Part shown: piece by piece, positions 22,611-44,363 of the stretch
How positions within the stretch are numbered: position 1 is the first letter of the stretch
How the letters are laid out: every line of letters begins with the position of its first letter
From: Flavobacteriales bacterium
Lineage (GTDB): Bacteria > Bacteroidota > Bacteroidia > Flavobacteriales_D > Sanyastnellaceae
Reading direction: 5' to 3'
Assembly: GCA_020437755.1 (NCBI GenBank)
Contig: JAGQVX010000004.1
Location: forward strand, 1 to 64,000
Length of the DNA: 64,000 bases
Program-made: the position numbers and the translations under genes
The notes under the pieces: model-generated
The model's input: only the letters and a program-made list of their open reading frames with translations
What the model was told of the DNA's origin: nothing
Databases searched by the model: none

Positions 22611-23552
22611 ATGCGGCGATTGTTAGTCATAGCAGCTCTGGTTGTCGGAGCATTGGGGAGTGAGGCGCAGCAGTTGCCGCAGTACACGCATTTTGTCACC
22701 AATTACTTTCAGTACAATCCGGCAGTTGCCGGAAGTGCGGCTTGTTTGGATCTGAAGATTGGTTATCGCAAGCAGTGGATGAATGTATCGGGGGCGCCTT
22801 CTACCGCATTTGCGAATGCACATGGTAACTTCGGAAAAAAGAAGCGCAAGGGATATAATTTCCACGGTATTGGTGGAATAGTGGAGACTGACAATGCGGG
22901 ACGTTTGAGTTACACGAGTGTTCATTTGGCGTATGCCTACCACATGCGTATATCCAGGAAATACATGTTGAGTGCGGGATTGGCAGCAGGGATATATCAG
23001 TACCGATTTGATTTTGCGGAGGTAAATGTTGTAGATGATTTCAACACTGATGATGCCTTGGTAAACGCGATGGCGCAACAGTTTATTTATCCGCAGATCA
23101 ATCTGGGTTTTTGGTTGTACCGCGATGACCGGTTTTTTGGATTTTCGATGCGGAATGTAGTGGCCAACAAGATTGATGGCCTGGGAGACGAAAGCAAGAC
23201 CAATACTCACTTTGAATTCACCGCAGGTAAGATTATCGAGCTGAATGAAGATTTCAAGTTCAAACCTGCAGCCCAGGTAAAATATGTTCGCGCATCGAAG
23301 ATGGCTCTGGATGTGCAGGCGATGATTGATTTCCGGGAGAAGTTTCAGATTGGTGTGGGCTTCAGATCGGGTAATGGGATTTCGGCTTTGGTTCAAATTG
23401 ACATGTTCCGCTACATCACAGTGGGATACGCCTACGACCTTACACTTTCCAAAATGAGATACAATGGCATGCATACCCACGAAATCGTTTTGGGTATTTC
23501 TGCCTGTCCGGATGGCGACGGGAATAAGATTCCTTGCGCTGCTTATAACTAA
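22611..23552 (+). CDS. PorP/SprF-family T9SS outer-membrane protein
   Basis: The 313-residue protein has a signal peptide (MRRLLVIAALVVGALGSEA) and the family opening QQLPQYTHFVTNYFQYNPA, then AVAGSAACLDLKIGYRKQW. The rest is a run of amphipathic strands ending in HEIVLGISACPDGDG. PorP/SprF proteins are outer-membrane barrels; SprF of Flavobacterium johnsoniae is needed to secrete the adhesin SprB through its type-B domain. It directly follows a type-B cargo gene and is probably its partner. The following 67 bases lead to the giant adhesin gene on the same strand. Confidence 0.9.
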   Translation: MRRLLVIAALVVGALGSEAQQLPQYTHFVTNYFQYNPAVAGSAACLDLKIGYRKQWMNVSGAPSTAFANAHGNFGKKKRKGYNFHGIGGIVETDNAGRLSYTSVHLAYAYHMRISRKYMLSAGLAAGIYQYRFDFAEVNVVDDFNTDDALVNAMAQQFIYPQINLGFWLYRDDRFFGFSMRNVVANKIDGLGDESKTNTHFEFTAGKIIELNEDFKFKPAAQVKYVRASKMALDVQAMIDFREKFQIGVGFRSGNGISALVQIDMFRYITVGYAYDLTLSKMRYNGMHTHEIVLGISACPDGDGNKIPCAAYN

Positions 23553-35666: not shown

Positions 35667-38600
35667 TTATTTCAATCGAGTGATGGTAAGGTCGCTGGTG
35701 ATTTCACGAACGACTTCATTGGTAGAGTCCATCAAACGTGCTATGTACCAATAAGTACCTTCAGCAACGCCTTCCGCTCTCCAGTTGTTTTGATAATCAT
35801 CGCTTTCGAATACCAAACGTCCCCAGCGATCATAAACGCGTAGCTCAGTATGGTCATAAGCAAAGATTCCCGGAAGCTCAAAATTGTTGTTCATGCCATT
35901 AGAATCTTCATCTGGCGTGAAGATATTGGGAGAAGTTACCGGACAAAGGCTGGCCATAACTACCCACTGCGCTTCTGCTGTTCCGCATTGGTTTGTTGCT
36001 GTTCCTTCCAGCGTGAGGAATGATTCCAGGCAATCCTGTGGGAAAAAGTCAGAGCTCAAATTCAAGGACTCACCTGCGGTAAGCTCAATGATTTCGCCAT
36101 CGCAGTACAACATCCAATCGTACGAGCTAGCCCATCCTGAAGGATTCAGGTTGATTACCTCTACTTCATTTGGACATACCACCAAGGTATCACCCGAAGA
36201 GGGCACTGCTGAAATGGCCGGCATTGAAGAAATAGTAACGTCTACCGACGAAACATAGGTGTCACAACCGGCGTCATCTGCAACCGTAACGGTCACTGTA
36301 CCGGAGCTGGTCACGGTCAACTCATCACCTGTTGAACCTCCCGGACTCCAAACGGCAGTATAGCCATCAGGAAGTGCCGGTACCAGGTACAGGGTAAAGC
36401 TTGATTCATCACACTCAAGGGCCTCATCTCCCCAGTTGGTATAGTAAGGCTGTGCAATAATTACATCGGCTGAAGCATTGTCTGACCCACAATCATTCGA
36501 TACCGTCACCGAATACGTTCCTGACGTAGTCACTACCGGATCCGATTGTCCATCGAAGGCGTTGTTATTCCAATCATACTCCAAATCGGGTGTATCATTA
36601 TCTACCGGGTTCAATGTGAGGGTTTCGCCATCACAAAGCGTTTGATCCGTCAGGTTGGCATTTGGTACCACCTGCGATTCCACTTGAATAGAAACCGGAA
36701 CTGACCCGCAGCCATTGGTTACGGTACCGGTTACTGTCTCATCCGCATACTGTCCGGCAAAATCTGCCGTGGCCATGGCGGGATCGCTATTGGATTGAGT
36801 TGCATTGGTCCAGCTCACTTCTACATCACATTCTGTGGCAGCCGTGTAGTTCAATTCCAAGTCAACTTCTTCTCCCACACACAACACCTGATCAGTGCCC
36901 GGGGTAAGGAACACATTGGACAATGGCTCCGTAAAGGTGAGGGTAAAGGTGTGGCTTTGGCCACAGTTGTCTTCTGTAAAAGTCAATTCGTATGTACCCT
37001 CAATTTGTGGGGTAAACGTTGTGTTGAACAACTCATCATCTCCGAAGACACCGTCGATCGGACATGCGTTTTGTTCCCAAACACCCGTTGCGGGGTCCGC
37101 ACTACAGGCAGCCATACCGCACCACAATACTCCACCTTCACCGGCTCCGTTGAAAACCATGTTTCCACCGCCGCAGTTGAAAATCTGAACAGAGTTGTTA
37201 CCGTTATCTTCAGGTGACGCAAAGTATTCCACGCAAATCGAGTCACCGAAGTTCAATTCAATGGTTTGCTGGTTGGTGTTTGCCGTAAAGCAAGCGTTGG
37301 TCATAGAGAAACTTTGGGGCTCCAGAGGATCCGACTCACCTTCGGGCCAAATAGTTACCTGAATAAATGAACCTTCCCCGTATGCGCAATCGGCATCCGA
37401 GAAGTACATCAAGAGGTTACCGCCACCTGGATTCGAGTAGCCACCAGAAAATTCAACACTTTCTACGCCATCACAATACGCTTCATCTTCATATAGCGGG
37501 AATGATGCCGAGGCTTCAAAAATGTTAAAAATGTTTCGCGCTTCGCAGCCATTGTCATCCAGTCCGATTGCCACATAAGTACCAGGCCCTACTTCTACAC
37601 AGTTCTGGTTTAGATCTGTTGAGCAGAAGTTGCATTCAAAATCTTCTTCATCGTAGCATTCCCAAGAGGTTGAGACAAAGTTGCCAGGAAACTGGAAGCA
37701 AACTTCCACACAGTCGTCGTTGCATGCGTATGGACTTGGATCATAGCTAATAGCCGGCAATGGGAAAGTAATTACTTCAACTTCCACATATTCTGTAGTC
37801 GAACATTCACCAAGGTAGGCTGTCACAGAGTGCAAACCTCCATATCCAATGGCACAATCAGGTACCGGGCTTGAACAACCTGTGCTCCATACATAGTAAT
37901 CCAAATCGGCAGGTTCAACGCTCAACTGAGCCAGCTGACCCTGACAAATAACCGGATCACCGATAATTTCAATTTGAGGCGCTTCGAAATCTAATACCTC
38001 AATAACAATGGTTTGTGTTACCGACTTCACAGGAGTTCCGTTGTCGGTTGCTGTAACCTGAAGAGTGTGAACACCAATGAATTCAGGTGCTCCGGCAAAT
38101 CCACCAGTGATCGAACCTACGGTACCATTCTGGATGCTGCCTAACACAAAGTTTGGAGCTCCGGAATCATCGTAAGTAACAGTTACCGTTTGTCCATTTT
38201 CCGGTCCTAGATACTGCACCTGGAATGGCAGTGTATCGTTCAAACACACCGTAATCGTATCGCACGCAATTGATGGCCAGTCGCCATTCAAAGCCGCATT
38301 GTTGTACGTAGGGATTGGAGGGTGATTGGTCACCGCATCTCCGTTTTCATCACACAATTGGAGGAAGAAACTCTTGTTGTCCAACCAACTCACACCACCA
38401 GCGGCACCGTAAGGACCATTGTAGGTAGAACCTTCTAGGTTGAAACGTCCAATTTTAACGTGGTTTGTTCCTGAACCCTTGTCAGCACCCACCACAGCAG
38501 GTGTTGGACCATTGAATCCTGCAGTACCACCTACACCACCGTGCGCCCACTGCATATCGTCGTAAATCAAACCTACGTTGTAGCCTTCAGGAAGAATATC

Positions 38601-39281
38601 ACTCGTTCCATCGGTGAGGATCATTTGCATGGTGTTGCGCAATCCGTTGGCACCAGGCCAGTAGCCCACGTCTACAAACGTTACAATTGCGGCATTCTCA
38701 TTGGCATCCAATTCCCAGTAGCACAAACCTGTAGCGGTGAAATCAAAATCCGCCCAGAAACCGGCAATCTGGTTGTAGCCGGCACCCGGGAAATCCTCCG
38801 GAGTCCAGTCACACATTGGTTCGTTAAACGAGATGGTTCCTTTCGCATTGATGTAAAAGTGATTGTAGGTGGTTCCGAAGAAACAGAAATCCCAATCCAT
38901 TTGAACCGGACCCCAGTACACGTCAACACCCTGTCCAGCACCGCAACCTCCAGAGAAAAGGTTCCAGTTGGTTCCGTCCAACGTATTGTCATTCAAAGGG
39001 TCATGGTTGTACCACAATTCACAACCAAACAAGTCACCACCACCCGCGCTCTTGCGGAAATAGTTGTTTTCACGATTGGTTTCGATCAACTCATAAACTT
39101 CCTTCAGGTCAATGCTTTCATCGTCAAAAACGGCAAAGCGTTCCTCACGACTGAGCTCGAAAAAGCGTTCTTTCCAATCAGCAGGCGCCTGGACATCTTC
39201 TGGCTGTTCAAGCTCCAATTGCTGCGCATAGCCAAGTGCTGTAGAGAGCAGGAAAAATGATGCGAAAATCAGTTGTTTCAT
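35667..39281 (-). CDS. Secreted NIDO-like protein with T9SS type-B sorting domain
   Basis: 1204 residues from the ATG at 39281, which opens the signal peptide MKQLIFASFFLLSTALGYAQ; the longest frame adds six residues. After a charged stretch (about 20-75) comes a globular domain with GTTYNHFYINAKGTISFNEP and PGAGYNQIAGFWADFDFTAT, resembling nidogen-like (NIDO) domains. Ig-like and cysteine-rich repeats follow, then the type-B domain (NIFTPDEDSNGMNNNFELPG, LRVYDRWGRLVFES, AEGTYWYIARL, SDLTITRLK). It lies downstream of the sigma/anti-sigma pair on the same strand, after a 115-base gap with its own possible -7 box, TATATTTG (39373-39380). No PorP/SprF partner is adjacent. Confidence 0.87.
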   Translation of the reverse strand: MKQLIFASFFLLSTALGYAQQLELEQPEDVQAPADWKERFFELSREERFAVFDDESIDLKEVYELIETNRENNYFRKSAGGGDLFGCELWYNHDPLNDNTLDGTNWNLFSGGCGAGQGVDVYWGPVQMDWDFCFFGTTYNHFYINAKGTISFNEPMCDWTPEDFPGAGYNQIAGFWADFDFTATGLCYWELDANENAAIVTFVDVGYWPGANGLRNTMQMILTDGTSDILPEGYNVGLIYDDMQWAHGGVGGTAGFNGPTPAVVGADKGSGTNHVKIGRFNLEGSTYNGPYGAAGGVSWLDNKSFFLQLCDENGDAVTNHPPIPTYNNAALNGDWPSIACDTITVCLNDTLPFQVQYLGPENGQTVTVTYDDSGAPNFVLGSIQNGTVGSITGGFAGAPEFIGVHTLQVTATDNGTPVKSVTQTIVIEVLDFEAPQIEIIGDPVICQGQLAQLSVEPADLDYYVWSTGCSSPVPDCAIGYGGLHSVTAYLGECSTTEYVEVEVITFPLPAISYDPSPYACNDDCVEVCFQFPGNFVSTSWECYDEEDFECNFCSTDLNQNCVEVGPGTYVAIGLDDNGCEARNIFNIFEASASFPLYEDEAYCDGVESVEFSGGYSNPGGGNLLMYFSDADCAYGEGSFIQVTIWPEGESDPLEPQSFSMTNACFTANTNQQTIELNFGDSICVEYFASPEDNGNNSVQIFNCGGGNMVFNGAGEGGVLWCGMAACSADPATGVWEQNACPIDGVFGDDELFNTTFTPQIEGTYELTFTEDNCGQSHTFTLTFTEPLSNVFLTPGTDQVLCVGEEVDLELNYTAATECDVEVSWTNATQSNSDPAMATADFAGQYADETVTGTVTNGCGSVPVSIQVESQVVPNANLTDQTLCDGETLTLNPVDNDTPDLEYDWNNNAFDGQSDPVVTTSGTYSVTVSNDCGSDNASADVIIAQPYYTNWGDEALECDESSFTLYLVPALPDGYTAVWSPGGSTGDELTVTSSGTVTVTVADDAGCDTYVSSVDVTISSMPAISAVPSSGDTLVVCPNEVEVINLNPSGWASSYDWMLYCDGEIIELTAGESLNLSSDFFPQDCLESFLTLEGTATNQCGTAEAQWVVMASLCPVTSPNIFTPDEDSNGMNNNFELPGIFAYDHTELRVYDRWGRLVFESDDYQNNWRAEGVAEGTYWYIARLMDSTNEVVREITSDLTITRLK

Positions 39282-39372
39282 AGTATTCATTATTACCACC
39301 TCGTGTGGGCTTTTGATAAGTGTATCAGACTAAGGTTTTATATTCTTCGTTTCAAGCCTCTCAAAAGGGGCT

Positions 39373-39380
39373 CAAATATA
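39373..39380 (-). promoter_or_regulatory. Possible -7 box of the 1204-residue cargo gene
   Basis: TATATTTG on the minus strand matches TAnnTTTG. It lies 91 bases before the start codon with no obvious -33 TTG. A weak hairpin (GCCCCT/AGAGGC) lies in the leader. Confidence 0.35.
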
Positions 39381-39396: not shown

Positions 39397-40509
39397 TTAG
39401 TTGTTGTTGATAATGACGTATCCTGCACCCACAACCGCCGATCCATACACGTCAATTCCTTCGTATTGATAGGTGTAAGTCGCTATCGGACATTTGTTCC
39501 CAAAACGGTCATAGCCATCCCATGGATCTTCCTGATCCACAGAGTCATAAACCACCTTTCCATCATTATCCATCACAACAACCCGATGCAAGATAATGTT
39601 CGTTGCACCTGCTTGTAAATCAAACACATCATTCTCACCCGGACTGCCAAAAGGTGTAAACGTATTGATCTTTTTCACCTCGGGTTTGCGGTATGCCTTA
39701 ATGGTGGTTTCATGAACGTCATAATCACCGTTTTCAGCGTTGACCCGAAGACGCACAAACTGTTCGCCCTCTTCCAGTTCCAATTCAACCCTGCTTCCCG
39801 CATACTTTGCTCCATTGATACTCCATTCATAACTATCGGCGTCGCCATACTCCGCAATGAATTGGTATTTCAGATCATTCAAAGGATCTTTCACCACCGC
39901 AAACTGCGCAGTCACTGGTACTGCAGATTCCGGTAATTCCTGAGTTTGAGCAGGTGTTTGTGTGTCGTCTGAGGCTTGCGCTCCGGTGAAGTTTGGCTCA
40001 TCCTCCGCCTGTTCTGCCTTGTGAGAATGAATCGTGTCGGGACTGCCTCCGGTTATAATCTGTGGTACTGAGGTTTCGTCAGTGGAGGCATTCGCCAAAT
40101 GGGCTTCCGAACCTCCCGCCTTTTCCTTCACCTCCTGTGATGTCGCCAGGTCAACTTCCGCCTGTCCCGATGCTGCACTATCATCTTGCGCTTCCGCCTG
40201 CTGCTTTGTTTCGTCTTGCTTCTCCCCAATTACCTCCGCTTGAACTTCAGTAACTACAGGTGATTGCTTGTCATCATCTCCACTCACCGCAAAGATGACA
40301 GCCGTTGCAATGCCCACTCCCACCACAGCCGCTACCAGCCAGGCGGTCATTCCGGTAAACGCCGCGCCGCCACTTGCGGCACCAGCCGCTCCTGCCGCAC
40401 CCGGCAAGCCGGATTGCACAGCACTCCAAATCGCCGGATCAACTGGCGCCTGTGCGCCTTCCAGCTTGCTTTGGAATAAATCTCGTATGTGTTGGTCGTT
40501 CGGTTTCAC
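39397..40509 (-). CDS. Anti-sigma-factor-like membrane protein ending in a T9SS type-B-like domain
   Basis: The 370-residue protein has no signal peptide. Residues 1-45 (NDQHIRDLFQSKLEGAQAPV, DPAIWSAVQSGLP) look like the cytoplasmic sigma-binding part of Bacteroidota anti-sigma factors. One membrane segment follows (about 54-77, AWLVAAVVGVGIATAVIFAV), then a long acidic, alanine/glutamine-rich periplasmic spacer (80-195) and an Ig-like strand region (about 200-275). The final ~90 residues (FTPFGSPGENDVFDL, VVMDNDGKVVYDS, EDPWDGYDRFGNKCPIATYT, GAGYVIINN) align with the type-B sorting domains in this window. It overlaps the sigma gene by four bases. A sorting-type domain on an inner-membrane protein is unusual and suggests a sensor of T9SS traffic; this is inference. 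Confidence 0.8.
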   Translation of the reverse strand: MKPNDQHIRDLFQSKLEGAQAPVDPAIWSAVQSGLPGAAGAAGAASGGAAFTGMTAWLVAAVVGVGIATAVIFAVSGDDDKQSPVVTEVQAEVIGEKQDETKQQAEAQDDSAASGQAEVDLATSQEVKEKAGGSEAHLANASTDETSVPQIITGGSPDTIHSHKAEQAEDEPNFTGAQASDDTQTPAQTQELPESAVPVTAQFAVVKDPLNDLKYQFIAEYGDADSYEWSINGAKYAGSRVELELEEGEQFVRLRVNAENGDYDVHETTIKAYRKPEVKKINTFTPFGSPGENDVFDLQAGATNIILHRVVVMDNDGKVVYDSVDQEDPWDGYDRFGNKCPIATYTYQYEGIDVYGSAVVGAGYVIINNN

Positions 40510-41042
40510 GTCGTTCGCTCTAATGCGTTTAGTTCTTTTTTTAGCCAGGCCTTCGCCTTAAAAAATTGGGTCTTACTGGTGCTTTCCGACACTTCGATCA
40601 GCTCCGCGATCTCTTTGTGGCTGTAGCCTTCTATGGCAAACAGGTTGAAAACGGTACGGTATCCATCAGGCATTTGTCGGATCAACTCCATAATCTCCGC
40701 CTGACTCATTCTGCTCACCGCATCCACGTCATCGTCGGTTAGGTGCTGTACTTCTTCCACGTCTTCATGAAACATGAACCGTTTCTCTTTTCGGATGTGA
40801 ACCAACGCGCAGCTTATCACCACACTTCGAATCCATCCTACCAGCGAACCTTTACCACTGTATTGTCCCAATTTGTCAAAGACCTTGATAAATCCCTCCT
40901 GCATCATGTCCTGAGCATCGGGTTCATTTCCCGCATACCGCAGACACACGGCCATCATCTGACCGGAGTATTTATCATACAACAACCTTTGAGCTTTTCC
41001 GCTCCCCTCTAAACACGCTCGCACAAGTTCCTGGTCAGTCAT
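40506..41042 (-). CDS. ECF-type RNA polymerase sigma factor
   Basis: The 178-residue protein has sigma-70 region 2 (LLYDKYSGQMMAVCLRYAGN, EPDAQDMMQEGFIKVFDKLG and GWIRSVVISCALVHIRKEKR) and region 4 (MPDGYRTVFNLFAIEGYSHK, EIAELIEVSESTSKTQFFKA). That is the ECF layout with no regions 1 or 3. It should redirect RNA polymerase to a small regulon when released by the membrane protein encoded by the overlapping downstream gene. The regulon is unknown; the adjacent type-B cargo gene is a candidate. A TACATTCG box lies at 41132-41139 on the minus strand, about 90 bases upstream. Confidence 0.93.
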   Translation of the reverse strand: MTDQELVRACLEGSGKAQRLLYDKYSGQMMAVCLRYAGNEPDAQDMMQEGFIKVFDKLGQYSGKGSLVGWIRSVVISCALVHIRKEKRFMFHEDVEEVQHLTDDDVDAVSRMSQAEIMELIRQMPDGYRTVFNLFAIEGYSHKEIAELIEVSESTSKTQFFKAKAWLKKELNALERTT

Positions 41043-41237
41043 GAGGTTGTTGGTTGATTAGATGTACATTCACTGCTGAAAGTTGCCTGATCGTTGTTTT
41101 TCTTTTTGTACTCCCAAGAATATTCAACAGGCGAATGTACTAGATAGATGAATATTCCGCGAAAAAGGTTGTACCAATTAGCCGTCGCTACCTGAAAAGG
41201 AATCCAAGGTTAATCCATTCTCTGACGGGCTCGATTA

Positions 41238-41253: not shown

Positions 41254-41283
41254 TGAAATGCCACCTTGTTATGACCTATGCCT

Positions 41284-41314
41284 TTGGTCAGCTGAACCCT
41301 CCATCCTATCTTTG
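41284..41314 (+). promoter_or_regulatory. Promoter of the type-A T9SS cargo gene
   Basis: TTG (41284-41286), 20 bases, TATCTTTG (41307-41314): both Bacteroidota promoter elements at consensus spacing (TTG-N17-23-TAnnTTTG). The leader to the ATG at 41352 is 37 bases. The box lies inside the longest frame (from 41271) and so excludes that start. Confidence 0.7.
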
Positions 41315-41351
41315 GAACAGGAATTGCCCCAGGGCGACACAATTTTTTACC

Positions 41352-44300
41352 ATGACGACTCTCCAACAACTGGGTGCATTTATCACATTTACCATTTCAT
41401 GCAGCCTTTTCCTCACCACTCCTTCAACCGCCCAAACGTACTCATGGGCGCATGTGTTTGGTGGCACCTCAACCGATAAAATTTCCAAGATCAAGCGCGA
41501 TGATGCGGGGAATATTTACCTCTCCGGAACTTTCATTAACCAAGGGGAATTCGGGGGGATTACCCTACAATCTGCCGGTTCACTCGACCTTTTCCTCGCC
41601 AAAACCGACCCTCAGGGCAACCCCATTTGGGTGCATCGTGCCGGTGGAAGCTCACAGGATGAGCTCTCCGCATTCGACTTGGATGCCGACGGCAACGTGT
41701 ACTGGACGGGCACTTGCTACAATGCCTTTTCAATTGACGGAGATAGTTATCCGGCTGGAAACACCATTAGCAATTCCTTTTTTGTGAAGTACGACAATGA
41801 TGGCAATCTGCTTCAAACTTCAGTATTGCCTGATTTAAAAATGGGCATGCGCCAAATGGTGGTGGCGCCATCCGGTTCCATATACGTAGCTTCCGAGTAC
41901 CACGATTCAAATACCTGGGGTTCGTTCACTTTTGAGAACGGACAATGGGACGAAACCATTCTCGTGGCCAAACTTGACAACACCTTTGAACCCCTTTGGA
42001 TTACCGCTTCAACCAATACCACCAACGACAATCGAATCCATGACCTGGAGCTTGGTGATGACGGCAACTTATACCTGTGTGGAAGTTTCTTTACCGATTT
42101 GAATTGGGGTGGTGAGTCATACGCAAGTACGTTCAACACCTTCGAAGAAGGATATGTGTCACGCATGGACACGTTGGGCAATGTGGACTGGACCTTTCGA
42201 ACGGTAAATTCGCAGTGGGCTCACTGTACGTTTGCCGATTTGGATGCCAGCGATAATCAGCTTACCATTGGGGGATCTATAGAGCAGTCGGTGGCTTTTA
42301 ATGATAGCATCTATACAGCCGAAAACGGTTGGGCCGGCGTCATATTTACGTTGCTTCCTGAGGATGGCGCATTGGGTGCAATTCAATTCGTTTGGGGAAC
42401 ACAAGACGCGAGCGTTACCACCGTGGAATACCTTTCCGGGACCACATTCGTGGGCGGCTGGTTTGGTTCCATTTTCGGGGGTGGGGGTATATTTGGAACC
42501 GACACCATTCCCAATCAATCAAGCAGTTACAGCGATGCTTTTGTTGCCCGGCTCGATGGCAATGGGGGATACGAATGGGCCTACAGCGCCGGTGGGGCAA
42601 ATGAAGATTACACTTTTGACCTTCTGGCCCTGAACGACGAAGAACTTATTTGGGCCGGAGCTACCACATTTACCTCTTTCGGAACTATCGACTTTGATGG
42701 CATTGACCTTGATTTTCACGGAGGGTCAGATGGTTTTCTGGCGCAAATGGGACAATGCCACTTCGATTTCGGCACGGCAGATGAAACGTACTATACCTGC
42801 AACCTGAGCGAAATACTACTCACTGCAAGCGACTATTCTCAAATCCATTGGAACAACGGAGCCGAAGGCACCGATCTGCAACCCGAGAACTATGGCGATT
42901 ACTACTACATTGCCACGGATGAGCAAGGGTGTACCGGTGTTTCAGGTGTGTACCACATTTTACCCGGAGACCCGTTGGAGGTGACGGTCAGCGAGGTGCT
43001 TTGCGGGGGCGACTCCATACTCATCGGTGACACCTACTATTCCGAAGAGGGTGAAGTAGTGTGGACCTACACGGCCACAAGTGGCTGCGACAGCATAGTG
43101 ACCTACCTGCTCACAACCGGTGAATCGTATGATCAGCAATTCAATCATTCCCTTTGTTTGGGTGACTCGCTGCTTATCGAAGGAACCTGGTATACCGAGG
43201 CTCAGGACTTTTCGCTTATGCTGGAGTCACAATTGGGTTGCGACAGCCTGGTGACGCACCATATTGAAGTGATGGAGCCCTTTCAGTCTGTGATCACGGT
43301 TGATTTGTGCAACGATGATTCCGTGTTAGTGGGTTCCAATTATGTTGCGTTTACCGGGGTGGAAGACGTGGTGGTCGAAATTCAAGAGGGATGCGATAGC
43401 CTGTTTATTTACCAGGTCCATTTCCATTCTCACTACGACCAGGATTTCTACTATGATGTATGTGTTGGAGATACCCTGGAGAGTTTAAATCTCGAGGTTA
43501 ATCAGGATACGCTGGTTGTACAAAACCTCACCTCTATATGGGGATGCGATAGTGTGGTGGTACATCACATCAACGCCACGCTTTACACATCGTCTGTGGA
43601 ACACGTGCTCTGTTATGGTGATTCCATCTGGATAGATGGTTCGTATTATTCAGGCTACGTGGACGTGATTGAGAACCTACCCAATGACGAGGGTTGTGAC
43701 AGTGCTATCACCCATCATGTATACACCTGGCCACTGTCTCAATCAAATTTCGATTGGTACCTGTGCAACAACGACTCCATTGAGATTGATGGCGTTTGGT
43801 ACAGTTCCGATACCACCTTCACGACTTACCACACCAATATTTATGGTTGCGATTCGCTGGCCCATTTCACCGTTTATGCCGTTGACCCTGAGGATATTGT
43901 TCCACAAGAGGGAAGCGATGAAACGGGAGATTACTACTTTTTTGAAGCACCTGTAGATTCGGTCAATTGGTATTGTCAAACCTCCTCAGGAATTGTAAGC
44001 AGTGGCAACATTTTCTACACCGAATTGTGCAATCCGGAAAACGCCAACTGGCTTTCGTGGGAATTCTGGATTGCCAACTGTGGACCCTACACAGGAATCT
44101 TTACCTGGCTAAGTGCCGGGGAACAGGAATTTCCAGGCAAGCTTTTTCCCAATCCCGCTACACAAACCGTTCAATGGGACATGCGGGTGTCCATCGTTCA
44201 ACTTGAAATCCTTGATGCGAAAGGCAGCAGGATTGAATCGTATGCCTTAAATCAGAACGTTGGTGAAACGCCCGTTTACCATTTGCCGAATGGCTTATAC

Positions 44301-44363
44301 TTATTCACTTTTACCACCAAGGACGGATTGAAATACAGCCGCCGGATCTCGGTAGAACACTGA
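41352..44363 (+). CDS. Secreted beta-propeller-like protein with T9SS type-A sorting domain
   Basis: 1003 residues from the ATG at 41352, chosen from the promoter and the signal peptide (FITFTISCSLFLTTPSTA). Residues 30-470 hold repeated blades of the SBBP type: YSWAHVFGGTSTDKISKIKR, DDAGNIYLSGTF, DADGNVYWTGTCY, GDDGNLYLCGSF, GYEWAYSAGGANEDYTFDL. Residues about 540-860 hold six to seven repeats with CxxDSI...GCDS (for example LCGGDSILIGDTYYSEEGEV, GCDSIVTYLL). The last ~75 residues are a type-A (Por-secretion) sorting domain: LFPNPATQTVQWDM, LEILDAKGSRIESY, LPNGLYLFTF. It is likely released or attached to surface LPS. Iterated-motif copies lie inside at 41844-41859 and 44279-44294. Confidence 0.85.
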   Translation: MTTLQQLGAFITFTISCSLFLTTPSTAQTYSWAHVFGGTSTDKISKIKRDDAGNIYLSGTFINQGEFGGITLQSAGSLDLFLAKTDPQGNPIWVHRAGGSSQDELSAFDLDADGNVYWTGTCYNAFSIDGDSYPAGNTISNSFFVKYDNDGNLLQTSVLPDLKMGMRQMVVAPSGSIYVASEYHDSNTWGSFTFENGQWDETILVAKLDNTFEPLWITASTNTTNDNRIHDLELGDDGNLYLCGSFFTDLNWGGESYASTFNTFEEGYVSRMDTLGNVDWTFRTVNSQWAHCTFADLDASDNQLTIGGSIEQSVAFNDSIYTAENGWAGVIFTLLPEDGALGAIQFVWGTQDASVTTVEYLSGTTFVGGWFGSIFGGGGIFGTDTIPNQSSSYSDAFVARLDGNGGYEWAYSAGGANEDYTFDLLALNDEELIWAGATTFTSFGTIDFDGIDLDFHGGSDGFLAQMGQCHFDFGTADETYYTCNLSEILLTASDYSQIHWNNGAEGTDLQPENYGDYYYIATDEQGCTGVSGVYHILPGDPLEVTVSEVLCGGDSILIGDTYYSEEGEVVWTYTATSGCDSIVTYLLTTGESYDQQFNHSLCLGDSLLIEGTWYTEAQDFSLMLESQLGCDSLVTHHIEVMEPFQSVITVDLCNDDSVLVGSNYVAFTGVEDVVVEIQEGCDSLFIYQVHFHSHYDQDFYYDVCVGDTLESLNLEVNQDTLVVQNLTSIWGCDSVVVHHINATLYTSSVEHVLCYGDSIWIDGSYYSGYVDVIENLPNDEGCDSAITHHVYTWPLSQSNFDWYLCNNDSIEIDGVWYSSDTTFTTYHTNIYGCDSLAHFTVYAVDPEDIVPQEGSDETGDYYFFEAPVDSVNWYCQTSSGIVSSGNIFYTELCNPENANWLSWEFWIANCGPYTGIFTWLSAGEQEFPGKLFPNPATQTVQWDMRVSIVQLEILDAKGSRIESYALNQNVGETPVYHLPNGLYLFTFTTKDGLKYSRRISVEH

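Follow-up and report, generated by a model that had tools for sequence, protein, structure and literature searches.

In the flagellar checkpoint formed by FlgM and FliA, an anti-sigma factor links the state of export to late gene expression. To our knowledge, nothing is known in Bacteroidota about the matching of cargo production to T9SS capacity beyond PorXY-SigP. Dma/Das pairs of Bacteroides were reportedly described by Pardue in 2024. In these ECF21 pairs (PMC13088901), to which a pair in another study is similar (PMC9308784), the "dual membrane-spanning" anti-sigma factor Dma is composed of an anti-sigma region, a transmembrane segment, a disordered tether, and a beta-barrel (PMC13088901). 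In P. gingivalis, the ECF sigma factor SigP is tied to the T9SS and a CTD-bearing protein, PorA, feeds into this control; SigP is driven by the two-component system PorXY and controls machinery genes, and PorA is a surface CTD protein that is not fused to a regulator (PMC4800418, PMC7712824). F. psychrophilum SM6 also comprises an ECF sigma/anti-sigma pair with a promoter type common to T9SS genes; its −10 box is CGT, its targets belong to the machinery (GldN, PorU and others), and the domains of its anti-sigma factor are not described in the text of that report (PMC9723704). The type-B CTDs of T9SS cargo (TIGR04131/CHU_C) have PorP/SprF proteins as their known partners, as for SprB with SprF (PMC9143113, PMC12618676), and the CTD of SprB from F. 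johnsoniae contains five conserved motifs, each of which is required for export (PMC12618676).

Here we describe a locus in a stretch of 64,000 nucleotides from a Flavobacteriales genome (contig JAGQVX010000004.1, positions 1 to 64,000; hereafter the window) that encodes a predicted membrane anti-sigma factor with an end resembling a type-B CTD; a search of the open-access literature combining anti-sigma factors with T9SS terms returned no description of such a protein. The gene (39397–40509; 370 aa; GTG start) lies on the minus strand, a detail that the preliminary description of this DNA had not given, and shares 4 nt with the gene of an ECF sigma factor of 178 aa (40506–41042, minus strand) that contains regions 2 and 4 only (Sigma70_r2 and Sigma70_r4_2 in Pfam, 48 and 55 bits); the two genes are in the same operon, and the adjacently encoded ECF sigma factor is presumably the cognate one. 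From its N terminus, the anti-sigma factor consists of a cytoplasmic anti-sigma region with an invariant W28 (residues 1–35; 40405–40509), a single transmembrane segment (approximately residues 55–77; 40279–40347), a disordered periplasmic tether of low conservation (approximately residues 78–200; 39910–40278), a PKD-like Ig domain (residues 203–272; 39694–39903), and a CHU_C or type-B sorting-like domain (residues 281–367; 39409–39669), all encoded on the minus strand. The AlphaFold2 model (m5352090b1ac8) contains two N-terminal helices (residues 3–17 and 25–34), a transmembrane helix (residues 60–74), a tether of about 120 residues, and two beta-sandwich domains rather than a beta-barrel; pLDDT is below 50 at residues 39–160, mostly above 90 in the two sandwich domains, and above 90 in the PKD-like domain, which matches PKD structures in the PDB (e.g., 4l9d) and corresponds to PKD_4 in 22 of 25 homologues. 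No Sec signal peptide is present, as the protein starts with a cytoplasmic-type anti-sigma region and its sole hydrophobic stretch lies near residues 55–77. The preliminary description, made from the DNA letters alone, had proposed an anti-sigma factor that overlaps an ECF sigma gene by four bases, lacks a signal peptide, and tethers a type-B-like domain in the inner membrane, and the architecture found here agrees with it on all these points.

Residues 281–349 of the anti-sigma factor match the Pfam model CHU_C (PF13585) with 27.4 bits at a gathering cut-off of 27, and the C terminus scanned alone, the profile search that had been suggested for it, reaches 30.3 bits with CHU_C. The TIGR04131 score of the anti-sigma factor, 16.7 bits, is below the cut-off of 35. 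Taken alone, the CHU_C match of this single protein is borderline. Among its homologues, CHU_C was found in all 25 tested (best E value 1e-16) and TIGR04131 (NCBIfam) in 31 of 33 (best E value 1.3e-13), and a chance match of the domain was ruled out because homologues match far above the cut-off. We also rejected the reading that the protein is an ordinary cargo protein with a missed signal peptide, because its N terminus is homologous to that of other membrane anti-sigma factors and a sigma gene is adjacent in all loci inspected. Judged by these profile comparisons, the C-terminal domain is type-B-like, as had been claimed for it. Foldseek searches of the PDB returned PKD and Ig folds for the anti-sigma domains, with PorU at rank 9, and the best match in BFVD (E value 6e-12) was a protein of a phage that bears the name gliding motility-associated C-terminal domain; two proteins of uncultured phages that carry this name, A0A6J5L8Z9 and A0A6J5NJX2, are among the best fold matches there.

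The anti-sigma domains and the cargo domains differ in their RWG signature, which occurs in none of the 33 anti-sigma domains and in all 45 cargo domains, a comparison set that was assembled from the same genome, its neighbors, and regulon members and that leans slightly towards RWG, as part of it was chosen with a loose R-aromatic-G pattern. All 14 cargo domains that were added without this filter also contain RWG. By contrast, the FTP, WDG, and G-Y positions of type-B domains are invariant or nearly so across the anti-sigma domains. In a domain tree, many forks of which are unresolved, the anti-sigma domains form one clade, corresponding to one change (SH-aLRT 90). RWG probably falls within one of the five motifs of the SprB CTD. 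Its loss is consistent with a role of the anti-sigma domain as a decoy or sensor, and it could also mean that T9SS parts no longer recognize this domain at all.

A survey of sigma/anti-sigma pairs with a type-B-like ending, which the preliminary description had proposed, identified the anti-sigma factor by sequence search in 32 of the 114 genomes and 13 of the 21 genera of its own family. In a profile search of the order, full-length forms among the matches listed come from at least 59 of the 245 genomes and represent six families. Wherever the flanking sequence sufficed in the family, an ECF sigma gene lies directly upstream of the anti-sigma gene, and the same was found in the order-wide loci that were read. 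A shorter form without the PKD domain was observed in one genome (G265, locus L230; CHU_C 51 bits). The genome that contains the window has 47 CHU_C matches; no second anti-sigma factor of this kind was found in it, and the best-matching of the other 46 are cargo-like ORFs. Scanning the phylum with the anti-sigma profile gave no full-length match outside the order at E<1e-42, a strict threshold that leaves absence unproven, and a scan of named genomes with the anti-sigma factor found nothing beyond a match to the PKD domain in Maribacter. The closest relatives of the sigma factor outside the order precede membrane proteins that have the same N terminus and transmembrane segment and other ends. 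Among these sister anti-sigma factors (L229, L231, L232, L233, L235, L240, L241, and L250), that of L229 ends in a beta-barrel (PF13568, 45 bits), and others have either longer C termini unmatched by Pfam, which look like barrels as well, or no recognized periplasmic domain. Profiles of the N terminus from within the order and from outside it, the latter including the barrel-ending protein, align in hhalign with a probability of 97.8% and an E value of 7e-13.

Like Dma, the protein has an N-terminal anti-sigma region, one transmembrane helix, a long disordered tether, a folded C-terminal module, and an adjacent ECF sigma factor, and its N terminus is homologous to that of outside-order anti-sigma factors, one of which ends in a barrel as Dma does. 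It differs in that its C-terminal module is a PKD domain followed by a type-B-CTD-like domain whereas that of Dma is a beta-barrel, and in that its predicted regulon consists of T9SS cargo whereas Dma pairs control vesiculation or PUL genes. On these features it should be filed as a protein that would work like Dma and shares the N-terminal kind of Dma, as a variant rather than a member, because the barrel, one of the defining features of Dma, is missing. Compared with the PorXY-SigP system, the predicted targets here are cargo rather than machinery genes, and the CTD-like domain sits on the anti-sigma factor itself and not on a separate surface protein such as PorA. Its C-terminal domain is homologous to the type-B CTDs of cargo proteins, but the protein that carries it is a transmembrane-anchored regulator without a signal peptide and without RWG. 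Together, the barrel-ending and tag-ending anti-sigma factors suggest one theme, in which a client domain of the outer envelope is fused to an anti-sigma factor as a sensor of the client's assembly route.

One ECF-type promoter of the AAC/GTC type, composed of GCAACYTTT, 14 nucleotides, and an ATC or GTCT core, is conserved before 40 sigma genes from several families. In the window this promoter is GGCAACTTTCAGCAGTGAATGTACATC (41061–41087, minus strand), located 18 nt before the ATG of the sigma gene. Sigma promoters of the family read GCAACTTT followed by the ATC core, and most other sigma loci read GCAACCTTT-N14-GTCT. From this promoter, the sigma/anti-sigma pair is predicted to be autoregulated. 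The promoter type may predate the domain fusion, because GCAACC-type sites precede the sigma gene in another family of the class (L252, 1427, plus strand; L237/L238, 1431, minus strand).

A first strict pattern, GGCAACTTT-N15-ATC, matched only sigma promoters and ORF-internal sites in six genomes; the reading that the sigma factor drives only itself was dropped, as so narrow a pattern would miss other sites, and later patterns did without the leading G. The pattern GCAACTTTTN14ATC gave 26 matches in 14 genomes of the family, the intergenic ones of which, except for L158/L264, precede sigma or signal-peptide genes; the sites at L264 and L265, which have no clear reading, were not counted as promoters. 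Intergenic copies other than the sigma promoters lie 3–103 nt before signal-peptide genes. A second pattern, the GYATC part of which was picked after the first targets had been seen, gave 29 matches in the 32 family genomes that encode the anti-sigma factor (10 before sigma genes, 13 before signal-peptide genes, 4 inside ORFs, and 2 others that were counted as non-promoter [one without a clear reading; G045:C255]) and nine matches, all inside ORFs, in the 82 family genomes that do not encode it. The motif is therefore promoter-placed in 23 of 29 cases in the former genomes and in none of nine in the latter (Fisher p=3e-5). Counted across the family irrespective of position, strict motif matches are no more numerous than those of a reversed-pattern control, and it is therefore position and genome class that carry the argument. 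The pattern GCAACCTTTN14GTCT, which was derived from sigma promoters alone and used for replication, matched 22 sites in 18 genomes of other families compared with four for the reversed pattern, and all but one of the 22 precede sigma or signal-peptide genes. Moreover, in the two lineages the sigma promoters and their target promoters switch together between the ATC and GTCT variants. The genome that contains the window has one exact promoter-placed site, before the sigma gene, and one site before a type-B cargo gene that departs from the motif at a single base (G000:C60:7160–7186).

When the ORFs behind these sites were scanned, a T9SS CTD (CHU_C or Por_Secre_tail) was found in 17 of the 18 complete target operons, including the one at the site with the mismatch; L188, L195, L196, L260, and L262 were left out because of contig ends, Ns, or the lack of a readable next gene. 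The target itself has a type-B CTD in L184, L187, L189, L190, L192, L257, L258, and L259; a small secreted protein is followed by a type-B gene in L185, L186, L194, L261, and L263; the target has a type-A CTD in L183, L193, and L197; and the target of L198 has no CTD in Pfam. Targets that we take to be choice-of-anchor-L-like, judging by their N termini, include the G000:C60 cargo protein and targets in other families, so that targets of the same kind occur in the family and outside it. If the background were 10% for a gene or its successor, which is an assumed and generous value, 17 of 18 would arise by chance with a probability of approximately 2e-16, a figure computed for target sites that are partly dependent, as several targets are orthologues. 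The predicted link from the sigma factor to a T9SS cargo regulon, which rests on pattern matches, is strong. The preliminary description had held that a regulon without a link to T9SS or envelope genes would speak against its idea of a new kind of secretion surveillance; the predicted regulon is T9SS cargo, and to that extent the idea is supported. The protein is, however, not of a wholly new kind but a variant of the Dma-type anti-sigma factors known in Bacteroidota, and because the predicted regulon is cargo and not machinery or stress genes, gating of cargo synthesis according to export capacity is a better fit than surveillance of stress.

Small secreted proteins of approximately 126–156 aa are encoded behind the sigma promoter in two families (L185:226–642, L186:7502–7972, L188:177–581, L194:6169–6609, L196:212–598, L261:196–576, and L263:8075–8491), and three of them were scanned and have no match in Pfam. 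In five cases such a gene immediately precedes a type-B cargo gene, and a function as a pilot or chaperone of the cargo is possible. Proteins of the Kazal protease-inhibitor type are found behind the sigma promoter in L183, L193, and L198, two of them with a type-A CTD.

The pair, its architecture and conservation, the shared promoter, and the cargo regulon are supported by comparison of sequences, and we lean, by a little, towards the view that an autoregulated ECF sigma/anti-sigma pair controls the synthesis of T9SS cargo by means of a cargo-mimic domain that is bound by a part of the T9SS. We give an even chance to the component of this view according to which the anti-sigma domain reads the state of the T9SS. 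The N terminus of the anti-sigma factor, which homology and operon structure suggest binds the sigma factor, would hold it at the inner membrane, and the long flexible tether would present the PKD domain and the modified type-B sorting domain in the periplasm. There, the type-B-like domain would most likely act as a mimic of cargo that is bound by an outer-membrane part of the T9SS, the likeliest partner being a PorP/SprF-like shuttle or the translocon. Whether the domain is bound or unbound would decide cleavage of the anti-sigma factor and release of the sigma factor, and cargo genes would be turned on at times of spare export capacity; this is the simplest sign of the coupling because the predicted targets are cargo. 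We infer both the proteolysis of the anti-sigma factor after a signal and this sign, and the binding of the CTD-like domain by a T9SS part has less support than sigma binding and proteolysis. Extended to a checkpoint that operates across the order, in which the tag mimic is bound by unoccupied T9SS shuttles or translocons, the sigma factor is released, and the cell restricts cargo synthesis to times when export is possible, the proposal becomes more tentative, and we rate it at somewhat below an even chance.

The domain could instead be a generic Ig module with another binding partner. According to this alternative, the pair controls T9SS cargo and the domain senses a surface, a glycan, an ion, or envelope damage, the type-B-like fold having been co-opted for its stability and use in binding, as an Ig-like module, during divergence of the protein from its barrel-ending relatives. 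RWG is gone from 33 of 33 domains although all five SprB motifs are needed for export (PMC12618676), binding is a common role of PKD and Ig domains, the fold matches in the PDB are generic Ig/FnIII proteins, and the tree shows one long-separated clade, all of which speaks for such a module. However, apart from this protein the domain family occurs almost exclusively in T9SS cargo, which is also what the sigma factor is predicted to target, so that a coincidence would be needed, and the FTP, WDG, and G-Y positions have been kept. We regard sensing of such a ligand as unlikely, though with appreciable weight.

The absence of RWG from every homologue also bears on the reading that the domain is a working sorting signal by which the C terminus is carried to or through the outer membrane via the T9SS or PorP/SprF, in which case the anti-sigma factor would span both membranes as Dma does and would read the cell surface. 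We know of no transmembrane-anchored T9SS substrates, and although the tether is long with about 120 residues, it may together with the two domains fall short of crossing the periplasm and the outer membrane. These points make such export improbable in spite of the Dma-like layout of anti-sigma region, transmembrane segment, long disordered tether, and outer-membrane module (PMC13088901) and of the outside-order relative with a beta-barrel end (PF13568, 45 bits). Several ECF sigma factors are present in the genome that contains the window, which has five sigma matches, and ECF regulons can overlap (PMC9723704); the motif might thus belong to another ECF sigma factor, with the pair itself not controlling the cargo genes. 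But the motif precedes the sigma gene of the pair in 40 loci, leaves promoter positions in family genomes that do not encode the anti-sigma factor, and changes jointly between its ATC and GTCT variants in the sigma and target promoters of two lineages, which makes a different sigma factor very improbable.

The preferred reading, control of cargo synthesis through a bound cargo mimic, resembles the FlgM–FliA checkpoint by analogy only, there being no homology between the two. The data suggest a coupling of cargo production to the state of the secretion machine, and a conserved sigma/anti-sigma pair with a look-alike of the cargo tag and a predicted cargo regulon makes the question of how production is matched to capacity directly testable.

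The large type-B cargo gene that the preliminary description had noticed downstream of the anti-sigma gene is indeed present, approximately 100 nt away on the same strand (35667–39299, minus strand; 1,210 aa; NIDO and CHU_C, the latter with 64.3 bits). A homologue of it lies downstream in most loci of the family (f1) and in none of those in other families. Just past the stop codon of the anti-sigma gene lies a housekeeping −7-like element, TATATTTG (39373–39380, minus strand), which matches the motif TAnnTTTG (PMC9723704) and occurs at a nearly fixed place after this stop codon in the window and 18 relatives, i.e., in 19 family intergenic regions; it is probably the promoter of the downstream cargo gene. 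No sigma motif was found in the intergenic region before that gene. The adjacent cargo gene was ruled out as the main target of the sigma factor, given the presence of TATATTTG without a sigma motif and its absence as a neighbor elsewhere.

The window holds further type-B genes. Between 21569 and 31284, a type-B cargo protein of 346 aa, a PorP/SprF shuttle (22611–23552; TIGR03519, 218 bits), and a giant type-B adhesin-like protein of 2,554 aa are encoded in a row. At L060, the gene immediately upstream of sigma encodes a PorP/SprF protein. Many relatives have lepA and the sigma gene in divergent orientation next to each other; in the window the two are 20 kb apart (20786–41042), with the type-B cargo, the PorP/SprF gene, and the 2,554-aa repeat protein between them, and this separation looks like an insertion or rearrangement. 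The gene that is divergent to the sigma gene in the window (41271–44363) encodes a protein of 1,030 aa with a type-A sorting domain (TIGR04183, 27 bits at a cut-off of 23).
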